From positions 1-47,576 of the forward strand of contig NZ_JAEPQA010000010.1 in the NCBI RefSeq assembly GCF_017640745.1: a stretch of DNA of 47,576 nucleotides, given 5' to 3'. Shown piece by piece: positions 9,023-33,887 of this stretch (position 1 is its first letter; each line of letters starts with the position of its first letter). This stretch comes from Nisaea sp. GTDB taxonomy: Bacteria > Pseudomonadota > Alphaproteobacteria > Thalassobaculales > Thalassobaculaceae. The translations under genes were made by a program, and so were the position numbers. The notes under the pieces are model-generated. The model was given only the letters and a program-made list of their open reading frames with translations. It was not told the DNA's origin and did no database searches.

Positions 9023-9081
9023 GAAGCCTCTCTTAGCGCGGCGCGGGCAGGCTCACAAAGCGAAAACGGCGCCTGCGCGGC

Positions 9082-9405
9082 TCACATTTCGATACCGTGC
9101 TGCGCCTTGATGCTCTTCAGCACCGGCATGAAGTCGTAGGTCGGGTAGAACTCCGTATCGAACGCGCCCCAGGCACTCTTCTCGATCGCGAGATTGACCT
9201 CGCGCAGCCGATGCCCGGGGACTTTCAGGATCGCAACCTGACCGATGCCCATCATCACGAACCAGTTCACCACCTCGATTCCCTCGGGCGGGAACATCTT
9301 CCAGAACTCGGCCTTTTCCAGCTTCGCATTGATTTCCTGAAGGTTCTTGTCCTTCTGATGCTTCAGAAACACCGTAAGCAGGATCTCTCCTTCGCCAGCA
9401 CTCAT
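9082..9405 (-). CDS. Small hypothetical protein
   Basis: A 107-residue soluble protein that I do not recognise. It starts MSAGEGEILLTVFLKHQ at an ATG preceded by GGGAGG; a longer frame upstream exists but lacks such a site. The pattern of two short strands and a helix (EILLTVFLKH, QEINAKLEKAEFWKMF, IEVVNWFVMMGIGQVAILKV, LREVNLAIEKSAW) would fit a ferredoxin-like dimeric alpha/beta-barrel fold. That is an impression from pattern only. It is divergent from the DUF1330 gene, which is of the same general fold class, with a 125-bp shared upstream region. Confidence 0.75.
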   Translation of the reverse strand: MSAGEGEILLTVFLKHQKDKNLQEINAKLEKAEFWKMFPPEGIEVVNWFVMMGIGQVAILKVPGHRLREVNLAIEKSAWGAFDTEFYPTYDFMPVLKSIKAQHGIEM

Positions 9406-9530
9406 CTCGGCCTCCCTCGTCCAATGACTGATGCGGAAGCGGAACTGAAGCATTCACCTCCTTGATTGGCAACAGGCGGGGAGATGCGGCTACAGTGATT
9501 TCAACGAGGCAAAACGAATGGGAGGAAATC

Positions 9531-9818
9531 ATGCCGGCAGGATACATCATCGCGCAGATCGACGTCTCCGATCCCACCGCGTTCGAGGAATACCGCAAGC
9601 TGGTCCCCGCCACGATCGCCAAGTTCGGCGGCGAGTATCTGGTTCGCGGCGGTAAACAGGAACAGCTCGAAGGCAGCAACAACCCGCGCACAGTCGTGCT
9701 CCATTTCGAAAGCTTCGACAAAGCGCGGGAATGGTACCATTCTTCGGACTACGAAAAGCCCAAAGCCATGCGACAGGCCGCGTCTAAAGGAAATGTCGTT
9801 CTGGTCGAAGGCGTCTGA
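9531..9818 (+). CDS. DUF1330 family protein
   Basis: A 95-residue protein of the DUF1330 family, small ferredoxin-like proteins related to the dimeric alpha/beta barrel superfamily, with no settled function. Characteristic stretches are GYIIAQIDVSDPTAFEEYRKLVP at the N-terminus, GGEYLVRGG in the middle, and VVLHFESFDKAREWYHSSDY near the end. The ATG at 9531 has an excellent GGGAGGAAATC ribosome-binding site, so the upstream ATG of the open frame at 9462 is not used. A nested hairpin lies just downstream. Confidence 0.9.
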   Translation: MPAGYIIAQIDVSDPTAFEEYRKLVPATIAKFGGEYLVRGGKQEQLEGSNNPRTVVLHFESFDKAREWYHSSDYEKPKAMRQAASKGNVVLVEGV

Positions 9819-9834
9819 CCTCGCACTGATCGCC

Positions 9835-9872
9835 GGCGCACAGGAAGCTTTCCTGACGCATTTTTGTGCGCC
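9835..9872 (+). terminator. Nested inverted repeat after the DUF1330 gene
   Basis: Outer arms GGCGCACA (9835-9842) and TGTGCGCC (9865-9872) are perfectly complementary. Between them a second hairpin CAGGAA / TTCCTG (9841-9846 / 9850-9855) forms over a 3-nt loop, followed by a T5 run at 9861-9865. The inner hairpin plus T-run could serve as a Rho-independent terminator for the DUF1330 gene. The outer pairing would make a branched structure. The role is inferred. Confidence 0.5.
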
Positions 9873-10001
9873 ACAATCTTTCACCCGCCTATTTTTTCGG
9901 CATAGCCGGAAACCTGACTGACCTGTCTCCTACGCGCTGCACAGCGTGTCTTGCCCGATAATCCGCATAGTCCCGCGGATCCCTCTCCCCGACGCATCGG
10001 G

Positions 10002-10016
10002 TGGCACATGTGTTGC
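10002..10016 (+). promoter_or_regulatory. Sigma-54 (RpoN) promoter, -24/-12 elements
   Basis: The sequence TGGCACATGTGTTGC matches the sigma-54 consensus TGGCAC-N5-TTGC exactly. GG at 10003-10004 and GC at 10015-10016 are separated by the required 10 bases. Transcription would start near 10028, about 30 bp before the permease ATG at 10058. This also rules out the earlier in-frame start at 10001, which lies upstream of the promoter. Sigma-54 control implies an enhancer-binding activator, for example one responding to nitrogen status; its site was not identified. Confidence 0.75.
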
Positions 10017-10057
10017 GTTGCAACGTGCTCCTTCCTGCGACCTCAGATCGCGACGCC

Positions 10058-10999
10058 ATGCTCAGACACGCTATCAAACGACTGCTCGTTTCCATCCCCG
10101 TATTGCTCGGGGTGCTCTTCATCGGCTTCATGCTGATGCAGATCGTTCCCACCGACCCCGCAACCGTCCTTGCAGGACCGACCGCGAGCGCTGCCGACAT
10201 CGAGGCAATCCGGGAGTCGATGGGGCTAAACGAGCCCGTCATCGTCCAGTTCGGGATCTATCTCGGCCGCGTTCTGCAGGGCGATCTCGGACGCTCCCTC
10301 ATCTCCAACAGCTCGGTCGTCGATGAGCTGGCAAACACGATCGGCCCGACGATCGAACTGATGTGCGCCAGCCTGATCTGGGCGATACCGCTCGGTATTC
10401 TTTTCGGCACCCTGGCCGCCGTCCGGCGCGGAAAGGCCTCTGACCGCATCATCATGGCCGCCTCGGTCGCCGGCGTCTCGATGCCGATCTTCTGGTTCGG
10501 CCTGATGCTGATCCAGTATGTCGGCTTCAAGTGGCAGATCCTGCCCTTCCAGGGCCGCGCCGGACCGCTCTGGACGATCGAGGGCCTCCGCCACATCATC
10601 CTGCCGGCGATCACGCTCGGCGGCGTCTTCGTCGGGCCTGTCGCGCGCATGACGCGGACCTCGCTGCTTGAGGTGCTGAGCAGCGACTTCGTCCGCACCG
10701 CCCGTGCCAAGGGCGTCTCGGAACGGGTCATCGTGCTGAAGCATGCGCTGCGCAATTCGCTGATCCCGGTGGTGACGCTGATCGGCCTGCAGATCGGCTT
10801 CCTGCTCGGCGGTGCCGTGGTGACCGAAACCATGTTCGCCTGGCCCGGGGTCGGACGGCTTGCGGTCGGCGCCATCGTCTCTGCTGATTACGCGCTCAGC
10901 CAGGGAGCGATCCTGGTGCTCGCGCTTTCCTTCATCATCGTCAATATCATCGTCGACCTGCTCTATGCCGTGCTCGACCCGCGCCTGAGGGTGTCATGA
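10058..10999 (+). CDS. ABC transporter permease, DppB/OppB type
   Basis: The first inner-membrane subunit of a peptide/opine/nickel-type ABC importer, 313 residues. It opens with the family's N-terminal helix RHAIKRLLVSIPVLLGVLFIGFML and the IVPTDPATVLAGP loop. The cytoplasmic EAA loop is visible as DFVRTARAKGVSERVIVLKHALRNSLIPVV (about residues 207-236), and the protein ends LLYAVLDPRLRVS, as DppB proteins do. The ATG at 10058 is chosen because it lies just after the sigma-54 promoter. The site before it is a poor Shine-Dalgarno match. It overlaps the next permease by ATGA. Confidence 0.93.
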   Translation: MLRHAIKRLLVSIPVLLGVLFIGFMLMQIVPTDPATVLAGPTASAADIEAIRESMGLNEPVIVQFGIYLGRVLQGDLGRSLISNSSVVDELANTIGPTIELMCASLIWAIPLGILFGTLAAVRRGKASDRIIMAASVAGVSMPIFWFGLMLIQYVGFKWQILPFQGRAGPLWTIEGLRHIILPAITLGGVFVGPVARMTRTSLLEVLSSDFVRTARAKGVSERVIVLKHALRNSLIPVVTLIGLQIGFLLGGAVVTETMFAWPGVGRLAVGAIVSADYALSQGAILVLALSFIIVNIIVDLLYAVLDPRLRVS

Positions 11000-19994: not shown

Positions 19995-20100
19995 GGGATC
20001 GGTTCCTTGCTCTGTTCGGATCTGGCGCACTCTAGATAGGTACGCCATTCGTGCCTGTCCTTCACAAGTCAGTCAACGGACCGGCGTCGGCACGAAACAG

Positions 20101-20125
20101 AAAAGGCGGCATGACGCCGCCTTTT
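20101..20125 (-). terminator. Rho-independent terminator after the aldehyde dehydrogenase gene
   Basis: A perfect 10-bp stem, AAAAGGCGGC (20101-20110) against GCCGCCTTTT (20116-20125), over a 5-nt loop. On the minus strand it is followed by TTTTCTGTTTC. It sits 20 bp after the stop of the gene at 20145-21617. This is a convincing intrinsic terminator, and it separates that gene from gor. Confidence 0.85.
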
Positions 20126-20144
20126 CCGCTTATCGCGCTAGGGA

Positions 20145-21617
20145 TCAGCCGTTCAGGCCGCCCATCAGCATGTATTTGATCTCGAGATAATCATCCATGC
20201 CATATTTCGAGCCCTCGCGGCCGAGGCCGGATTCCTTCACGCCGCCGAAGGGCGCCAGCTCGGAGGAGAGGATGCCCTCGTTGATCGCGACCATGCCGTA
20301 TTCGAGCGCCTCGGCGACGCGCCAGACGCGGCCGAGATCGCGGGCATAGAAGTAGGAGGCCAGACCGAACTCGGTGTCGTTTGCCATCTCGATCACCTCT
20401 TCCTCGGTCTTGAAGCGGAAGAGCGGGGCGACCGGGCCGAAGGTCTCCTCGCGGAAGATCGCCATGTCGCGGGTGGCATTGGTCAGCACGGTCGGCTCAT
20501 AGAACAGCGCGCCGATATTGCTTCGGGAGCCGCCCGTGGCCACCTTGGCGCCCTTGGCGACGGCGTCCTGCACATGCTCCTCGACCTTGTCGACCGCGGC
20601 GGCCTCGACCAGCGGGCCGAGCACCACACCCTCATCGAAGCCGTTGCCCATCTTCATCGAGGAAGCAGCGGCGGCAAAGCGCTTGGCGAACTCGTCATAG
20701 ATGCCGTCCTGGACAAAGATGCGGTTGGCGCAGACGCAGGTCTGCCCGGCATTTCGGTACTTGGAGGCGATGGCGCCCTTCACCGCTTCGTCGATATTGG
20801 CATCGTCGAAAATGATCAGCGGGGCGTTGCCGCCGAGCTCCATCGAGACCTTCTTCACCGTCGAGGCGGACTGCGCGATCAGCTTCTTGCCGACCTCGGT
20901 CGAGCCGGTGAAGGTGATCTTGCGGACGATCGGGCTGTGGGTCAGCTCGTTGCCGATGGCGGACGAGCTGGCGCCGCAGACCACGTTGAAGACGCCCTTC
21001 GGCACGCCTGCGCGCTCCGCCAGCACGGCGATGGCGATGGCCGAGAACGGCGTCATCTTGGCCGGCTTGGAGACGAAGGTGCAGCCCGCCGCGAGCGCCG
21101 GAGCCGCCTTGCGGGTGATCATCGCGTTCGGGAAGTTCCACGGCGTGATCGATCCAACGACGCCGACCGGCTGTTTGATGACGACGATGCGCTTGTCGGC
21201 CGCCATCGCCGGGATCACGTCGCCGGTGATGCGTTTGGCTTCCTCGGCGTAATACTCGATGTAGGAGGCGCCGTAGGCGATCTCGCCCATGGCTTCCGCC
21301 ACCGGCTTGCCCTGCTCGGCGGTCATGATGATCGCGAGGTCCTTCTGGTTCGCCATCATCAGGTCGAACCATTTGCGCAGGATCGCGGAGCGCTCCTTGG
21401 CGGTCTTCTTGCGCCAGGCCGGCCAGGCCGCGTTCGCCGCCTCGATCGCGCGCCGGGTCTCGTCGGCGCCCATGTCGGGAATGGTGCCGACCAGCTCGCC
21501 GGTCGCCGGATCCGTGACCTCGACCTTGCCGCCCTTGTCGGCATCGACCCATTCGCCGTCGATATAGCACTGCTCCCGGAACAGCGACGGATCCGCGAGT
21601 TTGCTTCTGATATCCAT
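20145..21617 (-). CDS. gabD: NAD(P)-dependent succinate-semialdehyde dehydrogenase type
   Basis: An aldehyde dehydrogenase superfamily enzyme of 490 residues, closest in pattern to GabD, which oxidises succinate semialdehyde from GABA breakdown. The motifs are PWNFP (159-163), FVSKPAKMTPFSA, FTGSTEVGK, the general base in MELGGNAP (Glu 260), and the nucleophile in GQTCVCANR (Cys 294, with the neighbouring Cys 296 typical of redox-regulated GabD). The C-terminal GREGSKYGMDDYLEIKYM is also GabD-like. The ATG at 21617 has an AGGGAG site. A related semialdehyde remains possible as substrate. Confidence 0.9.
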   Translation of the reverse strand: MDIRSKLADPSLFREQCYIDGEWVDADKGGKVEVTDPATGELVGTIPDMGADETRRAIEAANAAWPAWRKKTAKERSAILRKWFDLMMANQKDLAIIMTAEQGKPVAEAMGEIAYGASYIEYYAEEAKRITGDVIPAMAADKRIVVIKQPVGVVGSITPWNFPNAMITRKAAPALAAGCTFVSKPAKMTPFSAIAIAVLAERAGVPKGVFNVVCGASSSAIGNELTHSPIVRKITFTGSTEVGKKLIAQSASTVKKVSMELGGNAPLIIFDDANIDEAVKGAIASKYRNAGQTCVCANRIFVQDGIYDEFAKRFAAAASSMKMGNGFDEGVVLGPLVEAAAVDKVEEHVQDAVAKGAKVATGGSRSNIGALFYEPTVLTNATRDMAIFREETFGPVAPLFRFKTEEEVIEMANDTEFGLASYFYARDLGRVWRVAEALEYGMVAINEGILSSELAPFGGVKESGLGREGSKYGMDDYLEIKYMLMGGLNG

Positions 21618-21761
21618 GAGAGTGCTCCCTAGATTTGTCATCCGGCCGCGACCCTCTCCCGGTCACGGCGGCAATTGGCGGATACTAGTCCCCGGCACCT
21701 GGCTTGAGAAGGTGCCGCCGGACAGTGAGTTTCAATCGGAAGGCAGGGTTTTCCCACCAGC

Positions 21762-22544
21762 TCAGGCGACGTGTTCGTGCGCCGCGCCTTCCGGTTCTCT
21801 CAGTTGAACGCTTCCGAGCCGTCCAAGTTCCGGGATCGGCCGTGTGATGCCGGCGAGCCGCATCATATGCCAGGCGAGAACCTGGTTGCTGCAGAGGAAC
21901 GGCTTTCCGGTGCTGCGTTCGATCTCCTGGATCACGCTCGCGGCACGCAGGTTTGTGCAGGACGCGAAGATCGCCTCGACGGCGCCGTCGCGCGCGAGCT
22001 CCTCCGCCGCTTCCCGGATCGAGCCAAGCGCGATCCGGGCGACGACGCGTTCCTCTTCCTGGCCGAACACGGTCGCAGCGACGAACGGCATGCCGCTCTT
22101 CTGCATCTCGGCCTCGAGCGCATCAGTTACCGATCGGATATAGGGGCTGACGAGGCCGAGCCGGGAGACGCCAAGCGCCGTCGCGGCTGCCTTCAATGCC
22201 GAAAGCGGGTTGGTGACGGCGGCATTCGGATGCACGGAGCGGACAAGCTCGGCCACCCGCACCTCGCCCAACACGGTCGAGGCCGAGGTGCAGCCATAGC
22301 CGATCACGGCAAGCGGCGTGTCGTCCGGAAGCAGCGCCGCCGCGCCCGGGATCCGGGCCGCCATCTGGCGCAGCGTCTCCGGCGTCACGTTCGGCGCGCT
22401 CTCGATGCGCGTGTGGTAAAGCGCGATCGAAGGGTCGGCCGCGAAGCGCCGGAAATCCTGCTCGATGGTCTCGTCGGTCTTGAGGACGATCAGGCCGAGG
22501 CGATGGCGCCAGGGAAGGTCCGCGTCGATCTCAAGATCCCTCAT
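21762..22544 (-). CDS. Asp/Glu racemase superfamily enzyme (maleate isomerase / EutA-like)
   Basis: A 260-residue enzyme of the Asp/Glu racemase superfamily, in the branch with maleate isomerase, arylmalonate decarboxylase and the ectoine-utilisation protein EutA. Both catalytic-type cysteines are present, Cys 85 in VIGYGCTSAS and Cys 196 in AIFASCTNLRA. That argues against a decarboxylase, which keeps only one, and fits a racemase or isomerase. RLGLIVLKTDETIEQDFRRF at the start is typical of the branch. It has a GAGGAG ribosome site and follows the M24 gene by 77 bp. It is the third gene of an operon whose substrate is unknown. Confidence 0.82.
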   Translation of the reverse strand: MRDLEIDADLPWRHRLGLIVLKTDETIEQDFRRFAADPSIALYHTRIESAPNVTPETLRQMAARIPGAAALLPDDTPLAVIGYGCTSASTVLGEVRVAELVRSVHPNAAVTNPLSALKAAATALGVSRLGLVSPYIRSVTDALEAEMQKSGMPFVAATVFGQEEERVVARIALGSIREAAEELARDGAVEAIFASCTNLRAASVIQEIERSTGKPFLCSNQVLAWHMMRLAGITRPIPELGRLGSVQLREPEGAAHEHVA

Positions 22545-22621
22545 TTTGCTCTCCTCGCCGCTGGAGCGTTGAACATGGACCTTGCCGGCATTTCGATCAA
22601 TGGCACCGAACCGGCTCCGCT

Positions 22622-23785
22622 TCAGGTCACGACCGGGATATCGCCCGGCGATCGGCGTGTCAGCAGTTCCGCGCCATCCTCGCGAATTACGATATTCTCC
22701 TCATGCACCATCATCTTGCCCGGCGCGTATTCGAGCCCCGGCTCCAGCGTCAGCACCATGCCCGGAACGAGCTCTGTCCGGTCCGTCGCCGTGATCGAGG
22801 GCCATTCGGTCAGCACCGTGCCGAGCCCGTGGCCGATCCGCCCGACATTGCCCGCCCCGGCACCGTCTGCCGAGAGCACGCCCGCCATGGCCTCGAAAAG
22901 ACCGGAACAGGTCGCGCCCGGCCGCGCGGCTTCTAGCCCGGCTTCCGTCGCCGCGAAGACCGTGCGGTAGGCGCGCGCCACCGCTTCCGACGGCGCGCCG
23001 ATGGCGTAATTACGGTCGAAATCGCAGAAATACCCGTCGTGGAGCGTACCGGTATCGAGGATCAGCACATCGCCGTCCTGCACGGGGCGTTCCGAGGGCG
23101 GCGAGATGATGTCACCATAGCCGCCCGGCCCCGCGCCGCCGACGAGATAGGAGACATCGTCCGCCCCCGCCTCGAGGCAGGCGATCTTGAAGCGGCAGAA
23201 AATTTCCCGCTCGCTCATGCCCCGCGCGAGCCAGCCGGACCAGTCCTCGAACACGCCCGAGACAACCTGGCAGGCCGTCCGGATCTTGGCGATTTCGGCC
23301 TCGGATTTGACAACCCGGAGCGCCCGGACGATTCCTGCATCATCGCGGAAGGCTGCCCTGGGAAGCAGGCCCCGCAGCTTGTCATATTCGGCGAGCGGCA
23401 GGCGGAGATGGGTCTCCGGACCGGAAGGAATGCCGATGCGTGGCGCATCGCCGCCAAGCTCCCGCACGGTCTCCGCGAGGAGCGAAAGCCCCTCGTCCGA
23501 AGGGTTCGGCGAGGCCCATGTGCGGATATCCTCGATCCAGGTCCGCTCCATTGCCGGCGCGCCGATGCCGGGAATGACCGCGACCGGCTTCCCCCGGGCA
23601 GGCACAAGCAGAAACCAGGGACGCGTGGGGCTCTGCCAGAACTGCGTCAGGAAGCCGCTGAAATAGCGCACGTCCGGTTCTGTGGTCAGCAGCAGCAGGT
23701 CGAGCCCCTCCGCCGCCATGCGACGCTGAGCGCGCTCCAGCCGCGCCTCGAACTCGGCGGCGGGAAAGCCGCGCGCCATACTCAT
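22622..23785 (-). CDS. M24-family metallohydrolase (Xaa-Pro aminopeptidase / ectoine-hydrolase-like)
   Basis: A 387-residue pita-bread-fold protein with a creatinase-type N-terminal domain (to about residue 160) and an M24 catalytic domain. All five expected metal ligands are readable: Asp 244 and Asp 255 (LDTGTLHDGYFCDFDRN), His 319 (RIGHGLG), Glu 348 (TLEPGLE) and Glu 363 (HEENIVI). It could be a dimetal aminopeptidase or a catabolic hydrolase of the DoeA/EutD kind. Its ATG overlaps the stop of the ammonia-lyase gene as ATGA, so the two are made together. That argues for a catabolic rather than a general peptidase role. Confidence 0.85.
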   Translation of the reverse strand: MSMARGFPAAEFEARLERAQRRMAAEGLDLLLLTTEPDVRYFSGFLTQFWQSPTRPWFLLVPARGKPVAVIPGIGAPAMERTWIEDIRTWASPNPSDEGLSLLAETVRELGGDAPRIGIPSGPETHLRLPLAEYDKLRGLLPRAAFRDDAGIVRALRVVKSEAEIAKIRTACQVVSGVFEDWSGWLARGMSEREIFCRFKIACLEAGADDVSYLVGGAGPGGYGDIISPPSERPVQDGDVLILDTGTLHDGYFCDFDRNYAIGAPSEAVARAYRTVFAATEAGLEAARPGATCSGLFEAMAGVLSADGAGAGNVGRIGHGLGTVLTEWPSITATDRTELVPGMVLTLEPGLEYAPGKMMVHEENIVIREDGAELLTRRSPGDIPVVT

Positions 23786-24990
23786 GCGGCGAGGTCGCCG
23801 ACGATAGCTTTGTAGATCTCGGGATCGGTCGCGCCCTCGCTGCCGATCAGCAGCACCCGGCTCCCGGGACCGAGACCGATCCGCGCTTTCAGCTCCGGGT
23901 TCGCCGCCACCGCCATCAGGCCGAGCAGCCCGGCGACACCGGACTCGCCCGCGGTGATCTTCGCCCCGGCCTCGCCGGAGGCGAGCAGGCGCATGGCCGG
24001 ACCGACGCCCTCCTCGCCGACGGTGACATAGTCGGAGCAGCCGCCGGAGAGGATCGGCCAGGCGACGAGCGACATCTCCCCGCAGGAGAGACCGGCCATC
24101 AGGGTTTCCTCATGGATCGGAACAATCGCCGGCTTGTCCTGCCGCGCGCTCTCGATGGCGCAGGCGGCGAGATCCGGCTCGACGATCACGGTGCACGGCG
24201 CGGCGGTGCCGAGGCGCTGCCAGAAGCGCGCGACCATCGCGGCGGCGAACCCGCCCACGCCGGCCTGCACGAACATGTGGGTCGGCGCGGCGTCCGTCTG
24301 CGCCAGAACCTCGCTCGCAATCACAGTATAGCCCGCCATCACGTCGCGCGGGATGTCCATGTAGCCGGGATAGGAGGCGTCGGAGACCACGAACCAGCCG
24401 CTCGCCTTGGCCTCGCGTTCGCAATGCTTCAGGGATTCGTCGTAGTCGCCGGCGATCCGCCGGACCTCGGCGCCAAACCCCTCCATCGCCGCCTTGCGGC
24501 CCTCGCTGACCTCGGCATGGATAAAGATGACGCAGCGGCAGCCCGCCATCTCAGCGCCCCAGGAGACCGAGCGGCCGTGATTGCCGTCGGTCGCGCAGGT
24601 GACGGTGAGATCCTTCAGCGCGGCGGCGTATTTGCCGGAGCGGATATCGGCGAGCGCCGCATCGCCGTGCCCATGCTCGCCAAGCCATTTCCGCGCCAGC
24701 AACATGACCGCATAGGCCCCGCCCAGCGCCTTGAAGCTGCCGAGCCCGAAGCGCGGTCCCTCGTCCTTGTAGATCACGGAGCCGACGCCGAGATGGGATG
24801 CGAGCCCGTCCAGCTCGACCAGCGGCGTCGCCGCATAACCCGGCCAGGAGGAGATCTCGGCGAGCGCCGCCTCGGCCATGGAGACCGGGAAATCCGCATC
24901 CAGTTCCGCCGGCCAGGCGCCCCCGAGGGTCGCGTGCGATACATGCTGGCGCAGCAGATCCGGCGCCGTCAGTTCCCGTTCGATCTTCAC
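23782..24990 (-). CDS. Diaminopropionate ammonia-lyase-like PLP enzyme
   Basis: A fold-type II pyridoxal-phosphate enzyme of 402 residues, resembling 2,3-diaminopropionate ammonia-lyase, which makes pyruvate and ammonia. The PLP lysine is in YKDEGPRFGLGSFKALGGAYAV (Lys about 87), with the phosphate-binding loop QAGVGGFAAAMVARF. The ATCATDGNHGRSVSWGA-type stretch also marks the family. The frame starts at GTG 24988-24990 behind GAGGGAG. Threonine-dehydratase-like EutB of ectoine operons has the same fold, so the substrate could be another beta-substituted amino acid. It is the first gene of the three-gene operon and begins 40 bp after a relic glmS 3' end. Confidence 0.87.
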   Translation of the reverse strand: MKIERELTAPDLLRQHVSHATLGGAWPAELDADFPVSMAEAALAEISSWPGYAATPLVELDGLASHLGVGSVIYKDEGPRFGLGSFKALGGAYAVMLLARKWLGEHGHGDAALADIRSGKYAAALKDLTVTCATDGNHGRSVSWGAEMAGCRCVIFIHAEVSEGRKAAMEGFGAEVRRIAGDYDESLKHCEREAKASGWFVVSDASYPGYMDIPRDVMAGYTVIASEVLAQTDAAPTHMFVQAGVGGFAAAMVARFWQRLGTAAPCTVIVEPDLAACAIESARQDKPAIVPIHEETLMAGLSCGEMSLVAWPILSGGCSDYVTVGEEGVGPAMRLLASGEAGAKITAGESGVAGLLGLMAVAANPELKARIGLGPGSRVLLIGSEGATDPEIYKAIVGDLAA

Positions 24991-25031
24991 CCTGGCCGCT
25001 CCCTCGTGCCGAAATCCGAGGTTAAGGCCCT

Positions 25032-25057
25032 ACTCCACCGTCACGCTCTTCGCAAGG
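25032..25057 (-). repeat. Relic copy of the glmS 3' end (left direct repeat)
   Basis: Twenty-six bases identical to 27982-28007. Read on the minus strand it encodes LAKSVTVE and is followed by an in-frame TAG stop at 25030-25032, whereas the live glmS ends with TGA. Upstream of the repeat the reading frame no longer resembles glmS. The TAG suggests this is the ancestral end of glmS, left behind when the segment at 25058-27981 was inserted. Confidence 0.85.
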
Positions 25058-25087
25058 ATTGCTGCCGAACCGCTCTTCGGTCTCGGA

Positions 25088-26494
25088 TCAAGCGACCGCC
25101 GCCGTTTCCTCCGGATATCCCTTGGGAGAAGCACCAACCTGGAAGCGAGAATCGAAGCTCAAACGATTACGGTCGAGGTTTCGCTCCGTATAAGTCCTGT
25201 GAATCGAAGTCTTGTCGAACACCAGAATATCGCCAGGCTCGAAAGTCGGTCTGACCATGAAAGGAGCGAAATATTCGACGGCATCTTCAAGAGGAACCGG
25301 GTTGATGTAATGCCCTCGCTCTCTGACGAAATGGATCGGGTGATTGACTCGGACGGGCAGAACTTCAAGTCCCGGGGCGATCCCCGGCCCACACTCAACG
25401 AACGGCATCCAGATCGTGAACCAGTCTGCATTGTCCGCATAGACGGGGTAATCCTGATGCAGCGAGGTCGGCTTGGGATCCGACGGCTCATGCCATTGAA
25501 GCAGCCATTGACCATGTATGTGGGGCTTCCATCCCTTTCCACCCCACCGACCGAGCGCTTGCAGAACATGTCTGCCGATGGGCTCGCCGTTTAAAAGTTC
25601 CAGTAGACGCGCCCGGACCGACTCAGACGCTTTGTTAAAGCCGACCGAACTCCTGTGTTCTTCCGCCATGTACTTGCGGAGCCAGGGTTCGAGATCGGTT
25701 ATCAAACTGTCAAAGCCAGTCTGGGAAATGGCGCCGCGCAAGACAGTACCGCCAAACGACTTGTAAGCGTGGCGCGCGGCGTCGTCCGCGCCGGCGGGGA
25801 CAACAATATCGCCGGCGCGACCATCGACCTGGAGTTCCAGATCCGCGACCCGCCCGTCTCCGCGCGCTTTCCCCATCTGCCAGAGTCGAAAGCGCGCGGC
25901 CACGTGGCCGGGATCGAGTTCAAGAGTTTTTTCGTATTCCCGTACGGCTGACCGAATGTCGCCAAACTGCTGTTCGTACATACCCGCGACATAGTGAGCC
26001 TCAGCAGACAGCGGGCGTATCCGCTTGCACGCATCGGCCGCGGCCTTCAGATCTTCAGCGCGGACATATTCGACAGGGGTGTCCAGCCAGACACCGGCGA
26101 CGTTCAACCATGCATCGAAATCATTCCCGTCCAGCTTGGTCAGAATGGACATGACCGTCGCGGCATTCGCTGCGAGATCGGGGTTTGTCCAAAGTCCGCT
26201 GTAACCGATCAGCGTGTGCCCCAGCGCATATACATCCCCGCGGGTCAAATAAGGTGACTGGATCATCGTCGCAAAGAGCGTGAGCGCCGGTTCCATTCTG
26301 TCCATGTGCAACAAGTGATGGCCAATCGCACGCACTGCGCGTGCGGACGCATCCGACAATCCGCTGGAAACCGCCCCGCCGACCGTCTCCAGAACGGTCT
26401 GGTCGTCTAGAGTGTCGATGCAGGCGCACAACTCAGCCGCTGCACCTTCGGTGAAACCGATGGTCAAATCCTGGACTCGGTTCATGCAATTCAT
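25088..26494 (-). CDS. TPR plus phytanoyl-CoA dioxygenase-like Fe(II)/2OG oxygenase
   Basis: A 468-residue protein in two parts. Residues about 40-215 are helical, with TPR-like repeats best seen at AEAHYVAGMYEQQFGDIRSAVREYEKTLELDPGHVAARF. The C-terminal part (about 240-455) has a double-stranded beta-helix oxygenase pattern: the iron ligands H346-x-D348 in TSLHQDYP, H432 in TSIHRTYTERN, and R444 for 2-oxoglutarate. It probably hydroxylates a small molecule or a sugar or peptide. Its ATG at 26494 overlaps the stop of the methyltransferase gene as ATGA, with GAGG upstream, so the two genes form a cassette. Codon and base use are less GC-rich than in surrounding genes. Confidence 0.8.
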   Translation of the reverse strand: MNCMNRVQDLTIGFTEGAAAELCACIDTLDDQTVLETVGGAVSSGLSDASARAVRAIGHHLLHMDRMEPALTLFATMIQSPYLTRGDVYALGHTLIGYSGLWTNPDLAANAATVMSILTKLDGNDFDAWLNVAGVWLDTPVEYVRAEDLKAAADACKRIRPLSAEAHYVAGMYEQQFGDIRSAVREYEKTLELDPGHVAARFRLWQMGKARGDGRVADLELQVDGRAGDIVVPAGADDAARHAYKSFGGTVLRGAISQTGFDSLITDLEPWLRKYMAEEHRSSVGFNKASESVRARLLELLNGEPIGRHVLQALGRWGGKGWKPHIHGQWLLQWHEPSDPKPTSLHQDYPVYADNADWFTIWMPFVECGPGIAPGLEVLPVRVNHPIHFVRERGHYINPVPLEDAVEYFAPFMVRPTFEPGDILVFDKTSIHRTYTERNLDRNRLSFDSRFQVGASPKGYPEETAAVA

Positions 26495-27900
26495 CCTGTT
26501 GCCTCGCTCTGATGCGCCCGCCACGCTCCCGAGAGAAAAATTTCCGAATTGCGCCGGTGCCCTGGTGCAAGTTGGGCGCCGGCTGCTTCGACGGATCTCT
26601 TCAGATAGGAGAGGTAGAAATCCATGACCTGGTCGCGGCGAACACGCAATTTCACGGTCATCGTGCAGAGATAGAGCAGAATTTCCGTCAATAAGGGCGC
26701 AAGGTCCGATCTGGACGTTAGGCATGCTTCCAGTAACGGCGCCGGACTGGAATATCTCTGCAGAAGGTAGCATGCCGAGAAAGCACGGCGCATGGCGTCC
26801 TGCAGCCGGGCTTCCGATCCGGCTTCCCGAGCCGTGCCGGCCGACACTCTGACCGCATCGGCCACCGCCGCCACGACATCCGTAATCAGCGCATCGCTCC
26901 TTTCCAGGATTTCGATCCTGTCGAGCAGCAAGCCGAGATTATGCGCATCCGAGACCTGCGCCCGGTCGATCCGCGCCTCGGCGACGTCATGAAACCCGCC
27001 AGCACTCGCCGCCATTGCCACCGGCCAGTCGATGGCCGGGCCCTTTTCCCCTGCAAGCTCGCGGTTCAAGGCATCTAGTCCCGCCGCCAGGACCGGATCT
27101 TCGCTAACGGTCCCACCCGAGACGAGCCCGCGAACGCAATCCGGGGAATGGGGCGGGAGCAGCGCGAGCGCAACAGACGCCTCTCGCTGAAGCGCTTCGT
27201 CGCCGGTTTGCTCGGCCAGAGCCTTCAGCGCTTCCCAGGATTTGAGGCGGTAGCAGTCGTTCTTCAGGATACGCCGGAAATCCTCGACCTGACCGCGCCC
27301 GGCCTTAAGCGCCTGAAGCGCTCCCGCTTCAAAAGCGTCGACGGTGACAGAGGTTTTCTGCCAGACACCATACCCATTATTGTAGGGCTGGGCATAGACC
27401 TCGAAAGATCCCAGCAATTTCCTTCGGAAATCTCGATACCAGACCTGCTTGATCCCCTCGCCCGCGTCGAGGCGAACGTCATGCCAAACCACCAGACCGC
27501 CCTCCCGCAGGAGCGGAAGGTACATTTCCGTATCTTGCAGGACACCGTCGACGCTGTGATCGCCGTCGATCAACATGAAATCATATTCGGGCGAGGCCGC
27601 GCGGACGGCTTCCAGCATTGCCGGATCGTGCGAATCGCCTATCAGAAAACTGATATTTTCCAGGGACCGTACCCGCGGGTCGACGAGATCGTCTGTGATA
27701 TCGAGCGCGACCACGAGGCCGTCAGGACCGACGATCCGGCTGAACAATCCGGTTGTGCCGCCTTGGGCAACGCCGATCTCCAGCACCCGCTTTGGCTGTA
27801 GGGCGATCAATTGCTCGATGAGCCAATGTATTTCCGACGTCGTTTGCCAACTGACATCAAGAATATCTTTGAACTCGGAGATATCGACCTGCATTGGCAT
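26491..27900 (-). CDS. SAM-dependent methyltransferase with unknown C-terminal half
   Basis: A protein of 469 residues. The first 190 form a class I methyltransferase domain of the Methyltransf_24 / cephalosporin-hydroxylase-like kind: motif I RVLEIGVAQGGTTGLF (about 38-53), the acidic strand VVALDI, the FMLIDGDHS strand (about 108-116) and VVWHDVR (about 138-143). The remaining 280 residues are helical with no recognised motif. The ATG at 27900 is chosen, but there is no good Shine-Dalgarno site; GTG 27903 and ATG 27894 are alternatives. It is the first gene of the cassette between the glmS repeats and is coupled to the oxygenase gene. Confidence 0.8.
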   Translation of the reverse strand: MPMQVDISEFKDILDVSWQTTSEIHWLIEQLIALQPKRVLEIGVAQGGTTGLFSRIVGPDGLVVALDITDDLVDPRVRSLENISFLIGDSHDPAMLEAVRAASPEYDFMLIDGDHSVDGVLQDTEMYLPLLREGGLVVWHDVRLDAGEGIKQVWYRDFRRKLLGSFEVYAQPYNNGYGVWQKTSVTVDAFEAGALQALKAGRGQVEDFRRILKNDCYRLKSWEALKALAEQTGDEALQREASVALALLPPHSPDCVRGLVSGGTVSEDPVLAAGLDALNRELAGEKGPAIDWPVAMAASAGGFHDVAEARIDRAQVSDAHNLGLLLDRIEILERSDALITDVVAAVADAVRVSAGTAREAGSEARLQDAMRRAFSACYLLQRYSSPAPLLEACLTSRSDLAPLLTEILLYLCTMTVKLRVRRDQVMDFYLSYLKRSVEAAGAQLAPGHRRNSEIFLSGAWRAHQSEATG

Positions 27901-27979
27901 CACAAATATTGGTTAAAAAGCCAAAGCGACCCTATCACACGAGCAAATAGCGTTCCCGCAATAAAGTTCCGCCCTCAGG

Positions 27980-29803
<1,824 letters not shown>

Positions 29804-29822
29804 GCGCGGGTGGTCCCTTCTT

Positions 29823-31181
29823 CTAGCTGTCTTTCTTCTTCGCGGCCTTGCGCGCCGCCCGCGTCTCGCGGTAGCGCACGGCCGCGCCCGGCACGACCTT
29901 GCGCGCGCCACGCACCGCCACGATGTCGTTCGCGCCGACATCTTCCGTAACCGTGCTGCCGGCGCCGACCAGCGCCCCCTCGCCAATCCGGACCGGTGCC
30001 ACCAGCGCCGTATTCGAGCCGATGAAGGCGCCCGCGCCGATCTCCGTCAGATGCTTCTCGAAGCCGTCATAGTTGCAGGTGATCGTGCCCGCGCCGATAT
30101 TCGCGCCCGCGCCGACCTCCGCATCGCCGACATAGCTCAGGTGATTGGCCTTCGCTCCGTCGCCGAACCGCGCATTCTTCACCTCGACGAAATTGCCGAC
30201 ATGGACCCGCTCGCCAAGCTCAGCGCCCGGCCGGAGCCGCGCATAGGGACCGACGCGCGCGCCGAGGCCGACCGTCGCGCCTTCCAGATGCGAGAAGCTC
30301 TTGATCTCGACCTTGGGGCCGATTTTCACGCCGGGGCCGAAGACGCAGTGCGGCTGCACCACGCTGTCCTGCCCGATCACCGTGTCGAAGCTGAGAAAGA
30401 CCGTTTCCGGCGCGACCAGCGTCACACCCTCGTCCATCACCCGGCGGCGCAGGCGCTCCTGCATCTTCGCCTCGGCAGCGGCCAGTCCCGCGCGGGAATC
30501 GACGCCCATGGTCTCGACCGGATCGATCCAGACGACGCCCGCCTTGCGGCCCTCCTCATGCACAAAATCGAGCAGGTCGAAGAGATAGAACTCGCCCTGC
30601 GCATTGTGCGGTTCCAGCCGCTCCAGCCAGTCGAAGAGCCGGCTGCCGTCGACCGCGAGCGCGCCACCATTGCAGAGCTTGATATCGACCTCGTCGCCCT
30701 TGAGGTCCGGTGCCTCGATGATCTTCCTGAGCCCACCCGCCTCGTCCAGCACCAGCCGCGCGTAGCGCCCCGGGCTGTCGAGCTCAAAACCGAGAATGAC
30801 GAAGGCCGCGCCGTCCGGGCCCTCCGTCATCGCCACCATCTGGGAAAGCGTCTCCGGCGTCAGCAGCGGCGTGTCGCCGAACAGCACCAGCACGGTGCCG
30901 GTGAAGCCCTCGAGCTCCGCCTTCGCCGCGCGCACCGCGTCGCCGGTGCCGCGCGGCGGATGCTGGATCGCGGTCGGGATCGGCGCGATGCTGGCCGCGA
31001 CGGCCTCCTGGCCCGGCGACAGCACGACGACCCGGCGTGCCGGCTGCAGCGGTTCCGTCGCCGCCAGCACATGGTGCAGCATCGGCCGCCCGGCGACGGT
31101 ATGCAGGACCTTCGGCAGGTCCGATTTCATTCTGGTGCCCTTGCCCGCGGCGAGGACGACGACTGCGACGGGATCGTTCAT
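29823..31181 (-). CDS. glmU: Bifunctional GlmU: GlcN-1-P acetyltransferase / GlcNAc-1-P uridylyltransferase
   Basis: A 452-residue bifunctional enzyme that acetylates glucosamine 1-phosphate and then makes UDP-GlcNAc. The N-terminal pyrophosphorylase domain shows the nucleotide loop VVLAAGKGTRMKSDLPKVLH (residues 8-27) and LFGDTPLLTPETL. The C-terminal half is a left-handed beta-helix of hexapeptide repeats (VIGQDSVVQPHCVFGPGVKIG onward) with the acetyltransferase stretch NHLSYVGDAEVGAGANIGAGTITCNYDG. The basic tail RAARKAAKKKDS is usual. It is the promoter-proximal gene of glmU-glmS, divergent from the phosphatase gene at 31406. Confidence 0.97.
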   Translation of the reverse strand: MNDPVAVVVLAAGKGTRMKSDLPKVLHTVAGRPMLHHVLAATEPLQPARRVVVLSPGQEAVAASIAPIPTAIQHPPRGTGDAVRAAKAELEGFTGTVLVLFGDTPLLTPETLSQMVAMTEGPDGAAFVILGFELDSPGRYARLVLDEAGGLRKIIEAPDLKGDEVDIKLCNGGALAVDGSRLFDWLERLEPHNAQGEFYLFDLLDFVHEEGRKAGVVWIDPVETMGVDSRAGLAAAEAKMQERLRRRVMDEGVTLVAPETVFLSFDTVIGQDSVVQPHCVFGPGVKIGPKVEIKSFSHLEGATVGLGARVGPYARLRPGAELGERVHVGNFVEVKNARFGDGAKANHLSYVGDAEVGAGANIGAGTITCNYDGFEKHLTEIGAGAFIGSNTALVAPVRIGEGALVGAGSTVTEDVGANDIVAVRGARKVVPGAAVRYRETRAARKAAKKKDS

Positions 31182-31405
31182 GACTCAACAATGCTGCAGG
31201 TGACGCAATAGCATTAACGAATGCTGCGAAAATGCCATAACGCCCCCGGCCAAGACAGTCACGATTTCTTACCTTTCACAACAGCTTGCCGCCCGGTCCG
31301 GCGAGGCTCCCTCATCTGGTATTCGTGCCGTGAAAATCGGACACCGCGAAGGCACGGCGCCGTGCTATAGCCGAGATCGTCCCGCAACCGCTCCGGCCGC
31401 CCCTC

Positions 31406-32077
31406 ATGTCCCGTAAACTCTCCGCCATCGTCTTCGATCTCGACGGCACCCTGATCGACTCGGTGCCCGACCTGCAGGCCGCCGGCAACATGCTGCTCGC
31501 CGAACGCGGGCTCGACCCGATCGACCTCGCCACCGCGCGCTCCTTCGTCGGCGATGGCGGCCAGGTCTTCGTCCGGCGCGCGCTGGCGGAACGCGGCGTC
31601 GCGCTGGAGGCGGAGGCCCTCACGGCGGCGACGGAGCGCTTCATCGCGCTCTACGAGGCGCATGCGAGCGACCGAACGGTGCCCTATCCCGACGTGCCGG
31701 AGACGCTGGAAGCGCTGAAGGCCGCCGGCTACCGCCTCGGGATCTGCACCAACAAGCCGGAACGCGCGACCCACAAGGTGCTCGCCCTGCTCGGCCTCGG
31801 CCATCTCTTCGAGGCCATCGTCGGCGGCGATACGCTGCCGGTCAGGAAACCCGATCCGGCGCATCCGTCGGCGGTGCTGGAGCGGCTCGGCGTTCCCCCG
31901 GAGGCGGCCTGCATGGTCGGCGACAACGAGCACGATTCCCACTCCGGCCGCGGCGCCGGCATGCCCTTCATCCTGATGACCTACGGCTATGCGCGGACCC
32001 CGCTCGATGAGATCCCGGCAGCGGCCCGGCTCGACCGTTTCCGCGATTTGCCGGACGCCCTCGCATCGCTTGCTTGA
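31406..32077 (+). CDS. gph: HAD-family phosphoglycolate phosphatase-like
   Basis: A 223-residue haloacid-dehalogenase-superfamily phosphatase, similar to phosphoglycolate phosphatase. Motif I is FDLDGTLIDSVPDL (nucleophile Asp about 11), motif II is ICTNKP (about 113-118), motif III uses the Lys in RKPDPAHPSAVLERLG, and motif IV is MVGDNEHDSHSGRGAG. In motif IV the usual GDSxxD is GDNEHDS, a mild variation. A helical cap lies between motifs I and II. The start ATG lacks a clear ribosome site. The gene is divergent from glmU. Confidence 0.88.
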   Translation: MSRKLSAIVFDLDGTLIDSVPDLQAAGNMLLAERGLDPIDLATARSFVGDGGQVFVRRALAERGVALEAEALTAATERFIALYEAHASDRTVPYPDVPETLEALKAAGYRLGICTNKPERATHKVLALLGLGHLFEAIVGGDTLPVRKPDPAHPSAVLERLGVPPEAACMVGDNEHDSHSGRGAGMPFILMTYGYARTPLDEIPAAARLDRFRDLPDALASLA

Positions 32078-32120
32078 CAGGCGGGAGCGGGCCCCTTAAG
32101 AGAGCCCTCCACCAAGCGAC

Positions 32121-32195
32121 GGGCGCGTAGCTCAGCGGGAGAGCATCGTCTTCACACGGCGAGGGTCGCTGGTTCAATCCCAGCCGCGCCCACCA
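32121..32195 (+). tRNA. tRNA-Val (anticodon CAC)
   Basis: A complete 75-nt cloverleaf with encoded CCA. The acceptor stem GGGCGCG pairs fully with CGCGCCC, the D-arm is GCTCAGCGGGAGAGC, and the anticodon stem TCGTC pairs with GGCGA around the loop TTCACAC, giving anticodon CAC. The T-arm is GCTGG-TTCAATC-CCAGC. The 3' end is ACCA. It stands alone after the phosphatase gene, and the scrambled accessory patch begins immediately downstream. No second copy of its 3' end was seen within the window. Confidence 0.97.
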
Positions 32196-32325
32196 CGCAC
32201 TTTCAGATACTTACGTCGCGATGAACAGTGCTCTCCGGTCAGATGCACCAGATGGGGCATTTTCCGCGTCTGGATACCCGCGTTAAGTTAGCCAAATCGT
32301 GCGCAGAATACGAAGAATCCAGCAG

Positions 32326-32366
32326 TCAAGTATCGCGCCCCTTTAATTCCTTTCCCTTTAATTCCC
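32326..32366 (+). repeat. Degenerate RAYT-type end motif, copy 1
   Basis: The stretch contains CCCTTTAATTCC twice in tandem after AAGTATCGCG. It resembles the reverse complement of the tandem motif beside the transposase at 34584-34625, with a few substitutions. It marks the start of the disturbed region downstream of tRNA-Val. Confidence 0.5.
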
Positions 32367-32391
32367 TCGCCCCGCCATCTCCACCATCGTC

Positions 32392-32413
32392 ATCCCGGCC
32401 CACGAGCCGGGAT
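32392..32413. repeat. Small palindrome of a dispersed-repeat type
   Basis: Arms ATCCCGGC (32392-32399) and GCCGGGAT (32406-32413) over a 6-nt loop, within GTCATCCCGGCC...GCCGGGATCCA. Sequences of this form are common dispersed extragenic repeats in alphaproteobacteria. It sits where the missing 5' part of hlyD would be expected. Confidence 0.55.
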
Positions 32414-32465
32414 CCACTGGTGACGCGCACGTGCGCACCGCCTAATATTCGCGCTGGGACAATTC

Positions 32466-33887
32466 GTGCGGAGCGATTCTCTTGGGCATTTTCGCAGCGC
32501 CGGGATCTGGGCCTGGTTCGGCCATCTCGACATCGTGGTCGCGGCGCCGGGCAAGATCGTGCCCGGCGGCAAGGTGAAGGTGGTGGAGAGCAGCCTGCCG
32601 GGCATCGTGCGCCAAATCCATGTCGAGGACGGCGCGCTGGTCCGGGCGGGCGATCCGCTGCTCTCGCTCGACCCGACGGAGAGCGGCGCCGATCTCGAGA
32701 AGCTGACCCGCGAATGGACGGCGGCCCGGCTCGATGTCGCCCGGCACGAGGCGCTGATCGGCGCGGCGGCGCTCGTAAGAGCAGATCGTGACCGGATGGA
32801 CGCATCCGGTCACGATCTGCTCGCCCAATTTTCAGGTTTGAGCGTTTCGCGAGCGGAGGAGCTCGCGAAACGCTCGGCCGGCGGCGCGCCGCTGGCGCCG
32901 GAGGAGGTCTTCGCGGCGCCGGAGGGCGCGGCGGAGCACGAAGTGGCGGAAGCGCTCGCGGTGCTGCGCGCGGAATGGGCGGCGCTGGCGGGCGAGCGGG
33001 AGCGGGCGGCGAAGGACGCGGCCCGGGCGCGCGCGACCTTGGCCTCGCTCCGCGCCGAGCAGGCCAAGGTCCGCGCCGTGCTGCCGCTCCTGACCGAACG
33101 GGTCGAGGGCCAGCGCATCCTCTTCGAGAAGCAGCTGACGCAGAAATCCGTCTATCTCGAGCATGAGCAGGTGCTGCTGGAGACGCAGCACCAGGCGCTG
33201 ATCCTGGAAAGCCGGATCGCGGAGGCGACGGCGACGCTGGCGAGCGCGGAGGCGACGGCGGCGAACCTGCTGCTCGCCTTCGAGGCGGAGACGCAGCGGA
33301 AACTGAACGAGGCCCGGCAGCGGGAGAGCGCGGCCGGCCAGGAACATATCAAGGCACGCGACCGGGTCGGCCGCCTGACGCTTGCGGCCCCGGTCGCGGG
33401 AGAGGTGACCGGCCTCGCCGTGCACACGCTCGGCGGCTATGTGCAGCCCGGCACGGCGCTGATGCGCATCGTGCCGGAGGAGGCCCCGCTCACGGTCGAG
33501 GCGACGGTGACCAACCGGGATATCGGCTTCATCGAGATCGGCCAGCGCGCGGCGGTGAAGGTCGATGCCTTCAACTACATGCGCTACGGCAGCATCGAGG
33601 AGCGCGTCGTCGCCCTCAGCGCCGATGCCGTGGTGCCGCAGGATGCAAACAACGCCGCCGGCGCCCCGGGCGCGGCGACCAGCGGCCCGCAGGCGGCGCC
33701 GCAGATGCTGTCCTACACGGCAAGGATCGAGCTGGAGCGCCAGCATCTCCGCGTCGACGGCCGGGACGTCCGCCTGGTGCCGGGCATGTCGGTGACGGCG
33801 GACCTGCTGACGGGGGAAAGACGGGTGCTGGAATACGTGCTGCAGCCGGTGCTGCGCTATGCGAGCGAAGGGATGCGGGAACGATGA
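32466..33887 (+). pseudogene. HlyD-family membrane fusion protein, 5'-truncated
   Basis: A periplasmic adaptor of the type I secretion HlyD/PrtE family, which bridges an inner-membrane ABC exporter to TolC. The open frame of 473 codons begins (GTG) at IWAWFGHLDIVVAAPGKIVPGGKVKVV. The cytoplasmic tail and most of the transmembrane helix, normally 50-80 residues, are therefore missing. The rest is intact: the first lipoyl half GIVRQIHVEDGALVRAGD, a long coiled coil (about 150-290), LAAPVAGEVTGLAVHTLGGYVQPG, and the usual end GMSVTADLLTGERRVLEYVLQPVLRY. A double palindrome interrupts the coiled-coil region in frame at 32779-32875. No exporter ATPase or TolC gene is nearby. Without its anchor it is probably non-functional. 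Confidence 0.75.
32779..32875. repeat. Double-palindrome element lodged in frame inside hlyD
   Basis: The first palindrome has perfect 20-bp arms at 32779-32798 and 32803-32822 over a 4-nt loop. A 17-bp AT-rich spacer (32823-32839) with an ATTTT tract follows. The second palindrome has perfect 15-bp arms, GAGCGTTTCGCGAGC at 32840-32854 and its complement at 32861-32875, over 6 nt. The palindrome-spacer-palindrome layout matches two-palindrome intergenic repeats of alphaproteobacteria. Here it lies within coding sequence, adds about 32 residues (RADRDRMDASGHDLL...EELAKRS) and keeps the frame open. Confidence 0.85.

Follow-up and report, generated by a model that had tools for sequence, protein, structure and literature searches.

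We analysed a stretch of 47,576 nucleotides from Nisaea sp. (contig NZ_JAEPQA010000010.1, positions 1 to 47,576, forward strand; hereafter the window) in which two genes, for a methyltransferase and a dioxygenase-like protein, lie behind glmS between two exact copies of that gene's last 26 bases. Our data indicate that this cassette is a real, old and precise insertion at the glmS 3′ end, and that the mechanism was most likely site-specific. The genome that holds the window is compared below with its four congeners (G001 to G004, the genus comprising five genomes including this one), one of which, G004, carries the same structure.

The repeat pair and its empty site

The 26-mer CCTTGCGAAGAGCGTGACGGTGGAGT (written on the glmS strand) forms the end of live glmS and recurs, 100% identical, at a spacing of 2,950 bp. 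A search of the whole 4.5-Mb genome allowing up to three mismatches returned these two places and no third. Among exact direct repeats with a spacing of up to 20 kb, the 26-mer is the longest, followed by one of 20 bp (407,543 bp of the genome, window included); those of at least 20 bp numbered two in the real sequence and 2, 0, 0, 0 and 0 in five Markov-simulated copies. The stop codon of live glmS is TGA, while the distal copy stays in frame until a TAG. Between the repeats lie two open reading frames (ORFs) with family matches, both in glmS orientation, and GC content in 500-bp windows is mostly lower over the cassette (0.55–0.66) than on either side of it (0.61–0.72; positions 20000–33000). 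An earlier reading made from the sequence alone (the sequence-only reading) had pointed out the repeats, the two stop codons and the lower GC of the methyltransferase and TPR-oxygenase genes, and all were borne out, the repeats by verification of coordinates and identity. Since the same structure, 2,950-bp spacing included, is found in the independent genome G004, an assembly error is ruled out.

Congeners show the site without its cassette. In G001, G002 and G003, glmS ends in TAA and a lyase gene dependent on pyridoxal phosphate (PLP) follows 36–40 bp on; in G004 the cassette's two genes occupy the same place. The sequence-only reading had predicted such empty sites, and they exist in three of the four congeners with the lyase gene at that short distance, but their stop is TAA rather than the predicted TAG, one base away. 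Over 25 coding bases, both 26-bp copies equal the native G001 sequence. The flanks give the insertion its polarity: the 42 bp from the distal stop onward align with the G001 spacer at a score of 17.5, where none of 2,000 shuffles exceeded 9.0, and less strongly with the G002 spacer, which is shorter (score 8.0, reached by one of 2,000 shuffles). The sequence following live glmS aligns with neither spacer, its scores being equalled or exceeded by 359 and 551 of 2,000 shuffles. Because only the distal flank aligns with the empty-site spacer, the ancestral glmS end is the distal copy and the TGA was brought by the insert. This supports the earlier proposal that glmS received the element's stop and that its ancestral end was displaced.

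Divergence from G004 speaks to the age of the event. Synonymous divergence (dS) is 0.42 and 0.40 for the cargo genes and 0.39, 0.42 and 0.39 for the next three genes; elsewhere it is 0.21 (the aldehyde dehydrogenase gene farther on) and 0.24 (glmS). Since the cargo genes match the next three genes in dS and the ratio of nonsynonymous to synonymous divergence (dN/dS) is only 0.11–0.12 (Table 1), the two carriers share one old insertion whose cargo is under purifying selection. On these sequence comparisons, the simplest account would be a single insertion that predates the split of the two species and was then held by selection, to which precise excision of the cassette in other lineages may be an alternative. 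The distal repeat differs between the carriers at 1 of 26 positions and the remaining spacer at 6 of 72; the repeat does not stand out clearly from the adjoining sequence by its conservation.

The place of exchange can be narrowed from glmS itself. Within the last 107 codons, 22 of 103 synonymous codons are changed relative to G001; for the body of the gene the figure is 93 of 476. Since the 3′ part is no more diverged than the body, the exchange occurred in or close to the 26 bp and left no long foreign tract in glmS, in support of the earlier suggestion of a recombination within the repeat.

In the genus, the interval from glmS to the dehydrogenase gene holds either the lyase operon (3.4 kb) or the operon plus the cassette (6.3 kb), and an aldehyde dehydrogenase gene closes the slot behind glmS in all 14 family genomes examined. 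The slot is variable across the family, with a length of 1.05–3.8 kb and different ORFs in nine genomes of other genera; these nine showed no glmS-end copy at E 1e-5. In a search of 36 family genomes (a search of the order gave the same 36), 19 match the glmS-end pattern, and only this genome and G004 match it twice.

Table 1 Features at the glmS 3′ end, with positions in the window.
Feature	Position	Strand	Remarks
glmS, live copy, 607 aa	27980..29803	(-)	stop TGA at 27980-27982; Pfam SIS and GATase domains; 87-98% identity to glmS of the four congeners
Proximal 26-bp repeat, the live glmS 3′ end (25 coding bases and the T of the stop)	27982..28007	(-)	
Inserted cassette between the repeats, 2,924 bp	25058..27981	(-)	absent here in three of four congeners
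S-adenosylmethionine-dependent methyltransferase, 470 aa	26491..27903	(-)	PF13578 / PF04989 RMNT_CmcI; dN/dS 0.12 against G004
TPR and Fe(II)/2-oxoglutarate dioxygenase-like protein	25088..26494	(-)	weak TPR and PDB 2rdn matches; dN/dS 0.11 against G004
Distal 26-bp repeat, the displaced ancestral glmS end	25032..25057	(-)	LAKSVTVE, then TAG (25030-25032)
Ancestral glmS-lyase spacer, now behind the distal copy	24991..25029	(-)	from flank alignment
PLP-dependent lyase gene (PF00291)	23782..24990	(-)	first gene after glmS in empty sites

Repeated glmS ends in other genomes

The wider comparison covers 107 glmS regions. These derive from 99 of 385 class genomes that match a degenerate glmS-end pattern, from which G324 and G342 (contig ends) and G313 were left out, the last also being rejected as a cassette case because it has two glmS genes; three congeners and eight family members were added. 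The sample consists of pattern-matching glmS genes only, and five further family genomes that matched the pattern (G005, G006, G017, G019 and G021) are not in it.

A copy of the glmS end downstream of glmS was found in four of these regions: the window, G004, and two unrelated alphaproteobacteria, G036 and G344. The repeats in G036 (~126–129 bp, 93% identity) surround 0.9 kb of DNA with a GC of 0.47, beside a glmS with a GC of 0.66, and the insert has one ORF with no family match. G344 has a tandem array of three glmS ends and two cassettes, with a metallo-hydrolase gene and then a DsbA-like gene; its repeats measure 93–98 bp at ~93% identity, followed by a copy of 33–39 bp. In G344, arginine replaces a lysine in each of the two distal copies; the residue is presumably the catalytic lysine of E. 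coli GlmS, so these copies would not be working ends. The repeated end brackets different cargo in the two Nisaea carriers, G036 and G344, that is, across lineages rather than within one species, and the two unrelated genomes thus show the other cargo between glmS ends that the sequence-only reading had expected elsewhere. The orders of G344 and G036 (three and one genomes) yielded no further case.

As a control, same-strand copies of an ORF's last 26-mer with up to four mismatches were sought for 905 other ORFs of the same regions. Four ORFs matched (a single one each in L101 and L109, and two in L107 that pair with each other); a fifth, in L040, was dropped as antisense over the glmS repeat, and opposite-strand matches (L043, L094 and L101) went uncounted. 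The scan covered 92 of the 107 glmS ORFs, without those of G036 and G344, which were both counted from a separate glmS-end comparison. With all four genomes, glmS stands at 4 of 107 against 4 of 905 other ORFs (p 0.006). BLAST with glmS end blocks gave five matches from 107 queries (best 1.5e-52), and the control with internal glmS blocks gave four at E ≤1e-5 from 427 queries (best 8e-7; five at a laxer setting). At the level of the phylum, 13 of 398 genomes have at least two glmS-end matches, close together in the window's genome and in G609, and far apart or on different contigs in nine; for G547 and G600 the places were not listed.

Among genome contigs, 24 stretches have a glmS-like end without Asn before LAKSVTVE. 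As read, 14 are glmS-like genes with another residue there, one (L189) is ambiguous and nine are ends without a preceding glmS, of which L171, L175 and L183 follow live glmS at 124–174 bp and L178 consists of two 158-bp units. Extra glmS ends 66–174 bp apart behind glmS, with hairpin-rich DNA between, were seen in four betaproteobacterial contigs (L171, L175, L178 and L183) and in G609 of the same phylum (L195). Immediately ahead of the extra end, L178, L183 and G609 have a common motif that ends in AGC(C/T)ACAAGC or nearly so; L171 and L175 resemble it by eye. We did not count these inserts as the same event, as they hold hairpins and no gene; they may reflect a different process. In G609 the second copy starts at an ACAAGC common to glmS and the hairpin end, which fits a tandem duplication by slippage too. 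The search pattern itself partly dictates their 5′ border and the restriction of their differences to synonymous ones, and for this reason the short inserts were not used as evidence. The L178 hairpin matched nothing in plasmid records.

Other orphan ends differ in setting. On L184 (a whole contig of 6295 bp) one lies directly before a UvrD-like gene and behind nagB-like and glmM-like genes, with a glmU-like ORF nearby (gene names read from translations); here glmS was possibly replaced, leaving its last 25 bases. On the reverse strand of L194, from ~1369, an orphan end faces a live glmS end at a distance of 128 bp, in the convergent orientation that inversion of one arm would give. Behind the array of G344 (L040, oriented coordinates), a 76-nt direct repeat (78%; 10297–10371 and 10883–10958) surrounds a small SnoaL-like gene named by eye, and 6864–10194 encodes a protein of 1109 aa whose matches to HATPase (E 0.17) and NOV_C (E 0.09) are very weak. 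Proteins of this kind often occur near defence genes.

Mechanism of the insertion

The account we favour, and regard as on balance rather probable, is an integrase-type mini-island at glmS: a circle carrying the gene's 26-bp end would have integrated by a single crossover, most likely through a site-specific recombinase. A small circular element with the methyltransferase gene, the TPR-dioxygenase gene and a 26-bp glmS 3′ terminus of its own would have undergone one crossover inside these 26 bp, before this species and one sister species diverged from their common ancestor. The crossover would hand glmS the element's last bases and TGA stop and move the ancestral end, with its TAG, to the cassette's far side. 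Since the element's bases replaced those of glmS together with the stop, the end of the GlmS protein would have stayed unchanged. Integrase-type islands make use of tRNA ends in the same manner. The circular intermediate and a dedicated recombinase are what we infer, the latter most likely acting in trans or since lost.

Several results weigh against this account. A hidden Markov model (HMM) of tyrosine recombinases built from 19 seed ORFs of the genus had no match among the 6,403 ORFs that lie behind glmS in the 107 regions (it recovers 18 of its 19 seeds, the missed L165 being probably a wrong-strand ORF). Seven serine recombinase seeds of the genus, from five loci, likewise had no match there; two of them (L217) look out of frame, and the other five recover one another partly. 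The regions searched have a median length of 12.5 kb, ten being under 3 kb, and distant recombinase families could be missed. The two carriers have only two tyrosine recombinases in common, presumably XerC and XerD, and these occur in all five congeners; a search of G004 for serine recombinases (PF00239) gave no match. The varying repeat lengths (26, ~126–129, 93–98 and 33–39 bp) also tell against a site-specific event, since a single recombinase should produce a uniform core. Viral contigs contained no exact match (0) to the degenerate glmS-end pattern. Finally, without the window's own lineage the excess at glmS is not significant (2 of 105 against 4 of 905, p 0.12, or p 0.16 with the dropped L040 ORF counted in the control), and the case for the glmS 3′ end as an insertion hotspot is suggestive, not proven. 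As the sequence-only reading had remarked, the cassette holds no recombinase gene, both cargo genes belonging to other families, and none common to the two carriers alone was found among their recombinases.

The variable repeats and the lack of a recombinase match behind glmS would both be accounted for by a RecA-type homologous single crossover, in which a plasmid or excised circle with a captured glmS 3′ fragment needs no dedicated recombinase and yields the same final structure. We take 26 bp, however, to be near the lower limit for RecA exchange, and a search of plasmid records with the junction gave no match at E 0.01. This explanation also leaves it unexplained that the captured fragment ends at or within ~8 bp of the glmS stop in all three alphaproteobacterial lineages, and we consider it possible but well short of probable. 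A 3′ border at or near the stop with a free 5′ border, as seen in those three lineages, is what homology-facilitated illegitimate recombination would predict for linear donor DNA with glmS homology at one end and microhomology at the other; it would equally predict a donor tract in glmS, but none is visible in either Nisaea carrier against G001, making this route improbable in our judgement.

We are just as sceptical that the distal 26 bp are the remnant of a second full-length glmS behind the cassette. Extra copies do exist in the genus, G002 and G003 having another glmS-like gene elsewhere (44% identity over the last 100 residues), but the flank behind the distal copy is the native glmS flank of G001, a longer glmS remnant was not found, and a deletion would have had to stop at the same base in both carriers or predate them. 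Transposition with a 26-bp target-site duplication, as casposases make with shorter ones, seems the least plausible of these routes: the identity of both copies to native G001 sequence is what duplication would give, yet neither cargo protein matches a transposase or Cas1 family, and the repeats of G036 and G344 have other lengths.

If the favoured site-specific integration is extended beyond these cases, a so far unrecognised proteobacterial family of small cassettes would use the glmS 3′ end as its attachment site, with the recombinase acting in trans and tandem stacking like that of staphylococcal cassette chromosome (SCC) elements behind rlmH or of cassettes in an integron. The G344 array (glmS end, metallo-hydrolase, glmS end, DsbA-like gene, glmS end) would then be an example, but we regard so broad a reading as doubtful.

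Cargo genes and related systems

The methyltransferase match to PF13578/PF04989 is limited to the first ~146 residues, the remainder having no clear family. The dioxygenase-like protein has 465 residues if it starts at 26485 and 468 if at 26494 (both possible); its best TPR matches (E 5.2e-4 and 5.5e-4) fall below Pfam cut-offs, and residues 332–458 match 1-deoxypentalenic acid 11-beta hydroxylase (PDB 2rdn, E 3.9e-5). By analogy with CmcI/CmcJ, a pair that we take to belong to cephamycin synthesis and liken to the cassette's two enzymes, the cargo is predicted to carry out hydroxylation and methylation of a substrate.

Relatives of these proteins are scarce. At E 1e-20 the methyltransferase was found only in the two carriers among the 36 family genomes, and the dioxygenase only in the window's genome among the matches listed from 385 class genomes (at most four candidates scored per genome); in the same-sized class draw used for the glmS-end pattern, G004 is not among the genomes listed. 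Plasmid and phage records gave three and two methyltransferase matches, confined to the methyltransferase domain at 29–34% identity, and none of 82 stretches in viral contigs that fit a short methyltransferase pattern was confirmed. The dioxygenase had no match in plasmid records and no confirmed one among 15 pattern stretches in genome contigs. An Rfam scan of 24500–28500 at E 1 returned no match, and promoter and terminator scans found 0 and 1 against 0.8 and 2.9 in shuffles. Elsewhere in the window, the coding ORF 32466–33887 contains at 32779–32822 two perfectly inverted 20-bp arms around a 4-bp loop, either a real hairpin or an assembly fold-back.

The nearest described case is fGI-2 of Methylophilaceae, an additive flexible genomic island with cargo of 330 bp to 42 kb that is marked by repeated copies of the final 20 bp of a tRNA gene (PMC10872708). 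Its target is tRNA-Lys, whereas here it is the protein-coding glmS with the end of the product kept (PMC10872708); the only tRNA found in the window is tRNA-Val (32121–32195), and a repeated gene end around variable cargo at one site is seen here across lineages. In integrase islands mapped by Islander in tRNA genes, island sequence regenerates the target and a displaced fragment marks the far end (PMC4383910). The Nisaea cassette is alike in its restored target, in the displaced, directly oriented fragment of the target end at its far side and in the empty site of three of four congeners, but has a protein-coding target and no integrase gene inside it or found nearby (PMC4383910).

SCC elements, marked by their ccr serine recombinases, dock in the 3′ end of rlmH and have direct repeats, tandem elements and pseudo-elements that lack a recombinase. 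The glmS inserts resemble them in docking at the 3′ end of a protein-coding gene, in direct repeats, in tandem elements and in having no recombinase of their own; unlike SCC, they have no large serine recombinase resembling our seeds near glmS, nor a PF00239 match in the carrier G004.

Tn7 leaves the glmS end single, and the 26-bp duplication sets the cassette apart from it, although both target the glmS 3′ region and spare the gene. No Tn7 tns gene is among the two cargo genes, and no dedicated tns model was run on the surroundings. The sequence-only reading's view of an insertion of a different kind from Tn7 is fair for the structure; the agency of a site-specific recombinase is what we infer beyond it. 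At attTn7, Tn7 is described as recognising the glmS 3′ region and inserting downstream with the gene spared, and 3′-end targets are described for casposons (PMC4046053). The literature matches listed included no report of such islands at glmS.

It is because of Tn7 that glmS is a textbook docking site. If our reading is true, there would be a second, non-Tn7 route for loading genes at the glmS end, one that leaves a readable scar. Such a scar would be a simple genomic signature for small cassettes missed by integrase-based island finders, and a precise target for finding the recombinase. It also dates the event, the cassette being older than the split of the two species and kept by selection, and the glmS end may serve as a docking site in other bacteria too.

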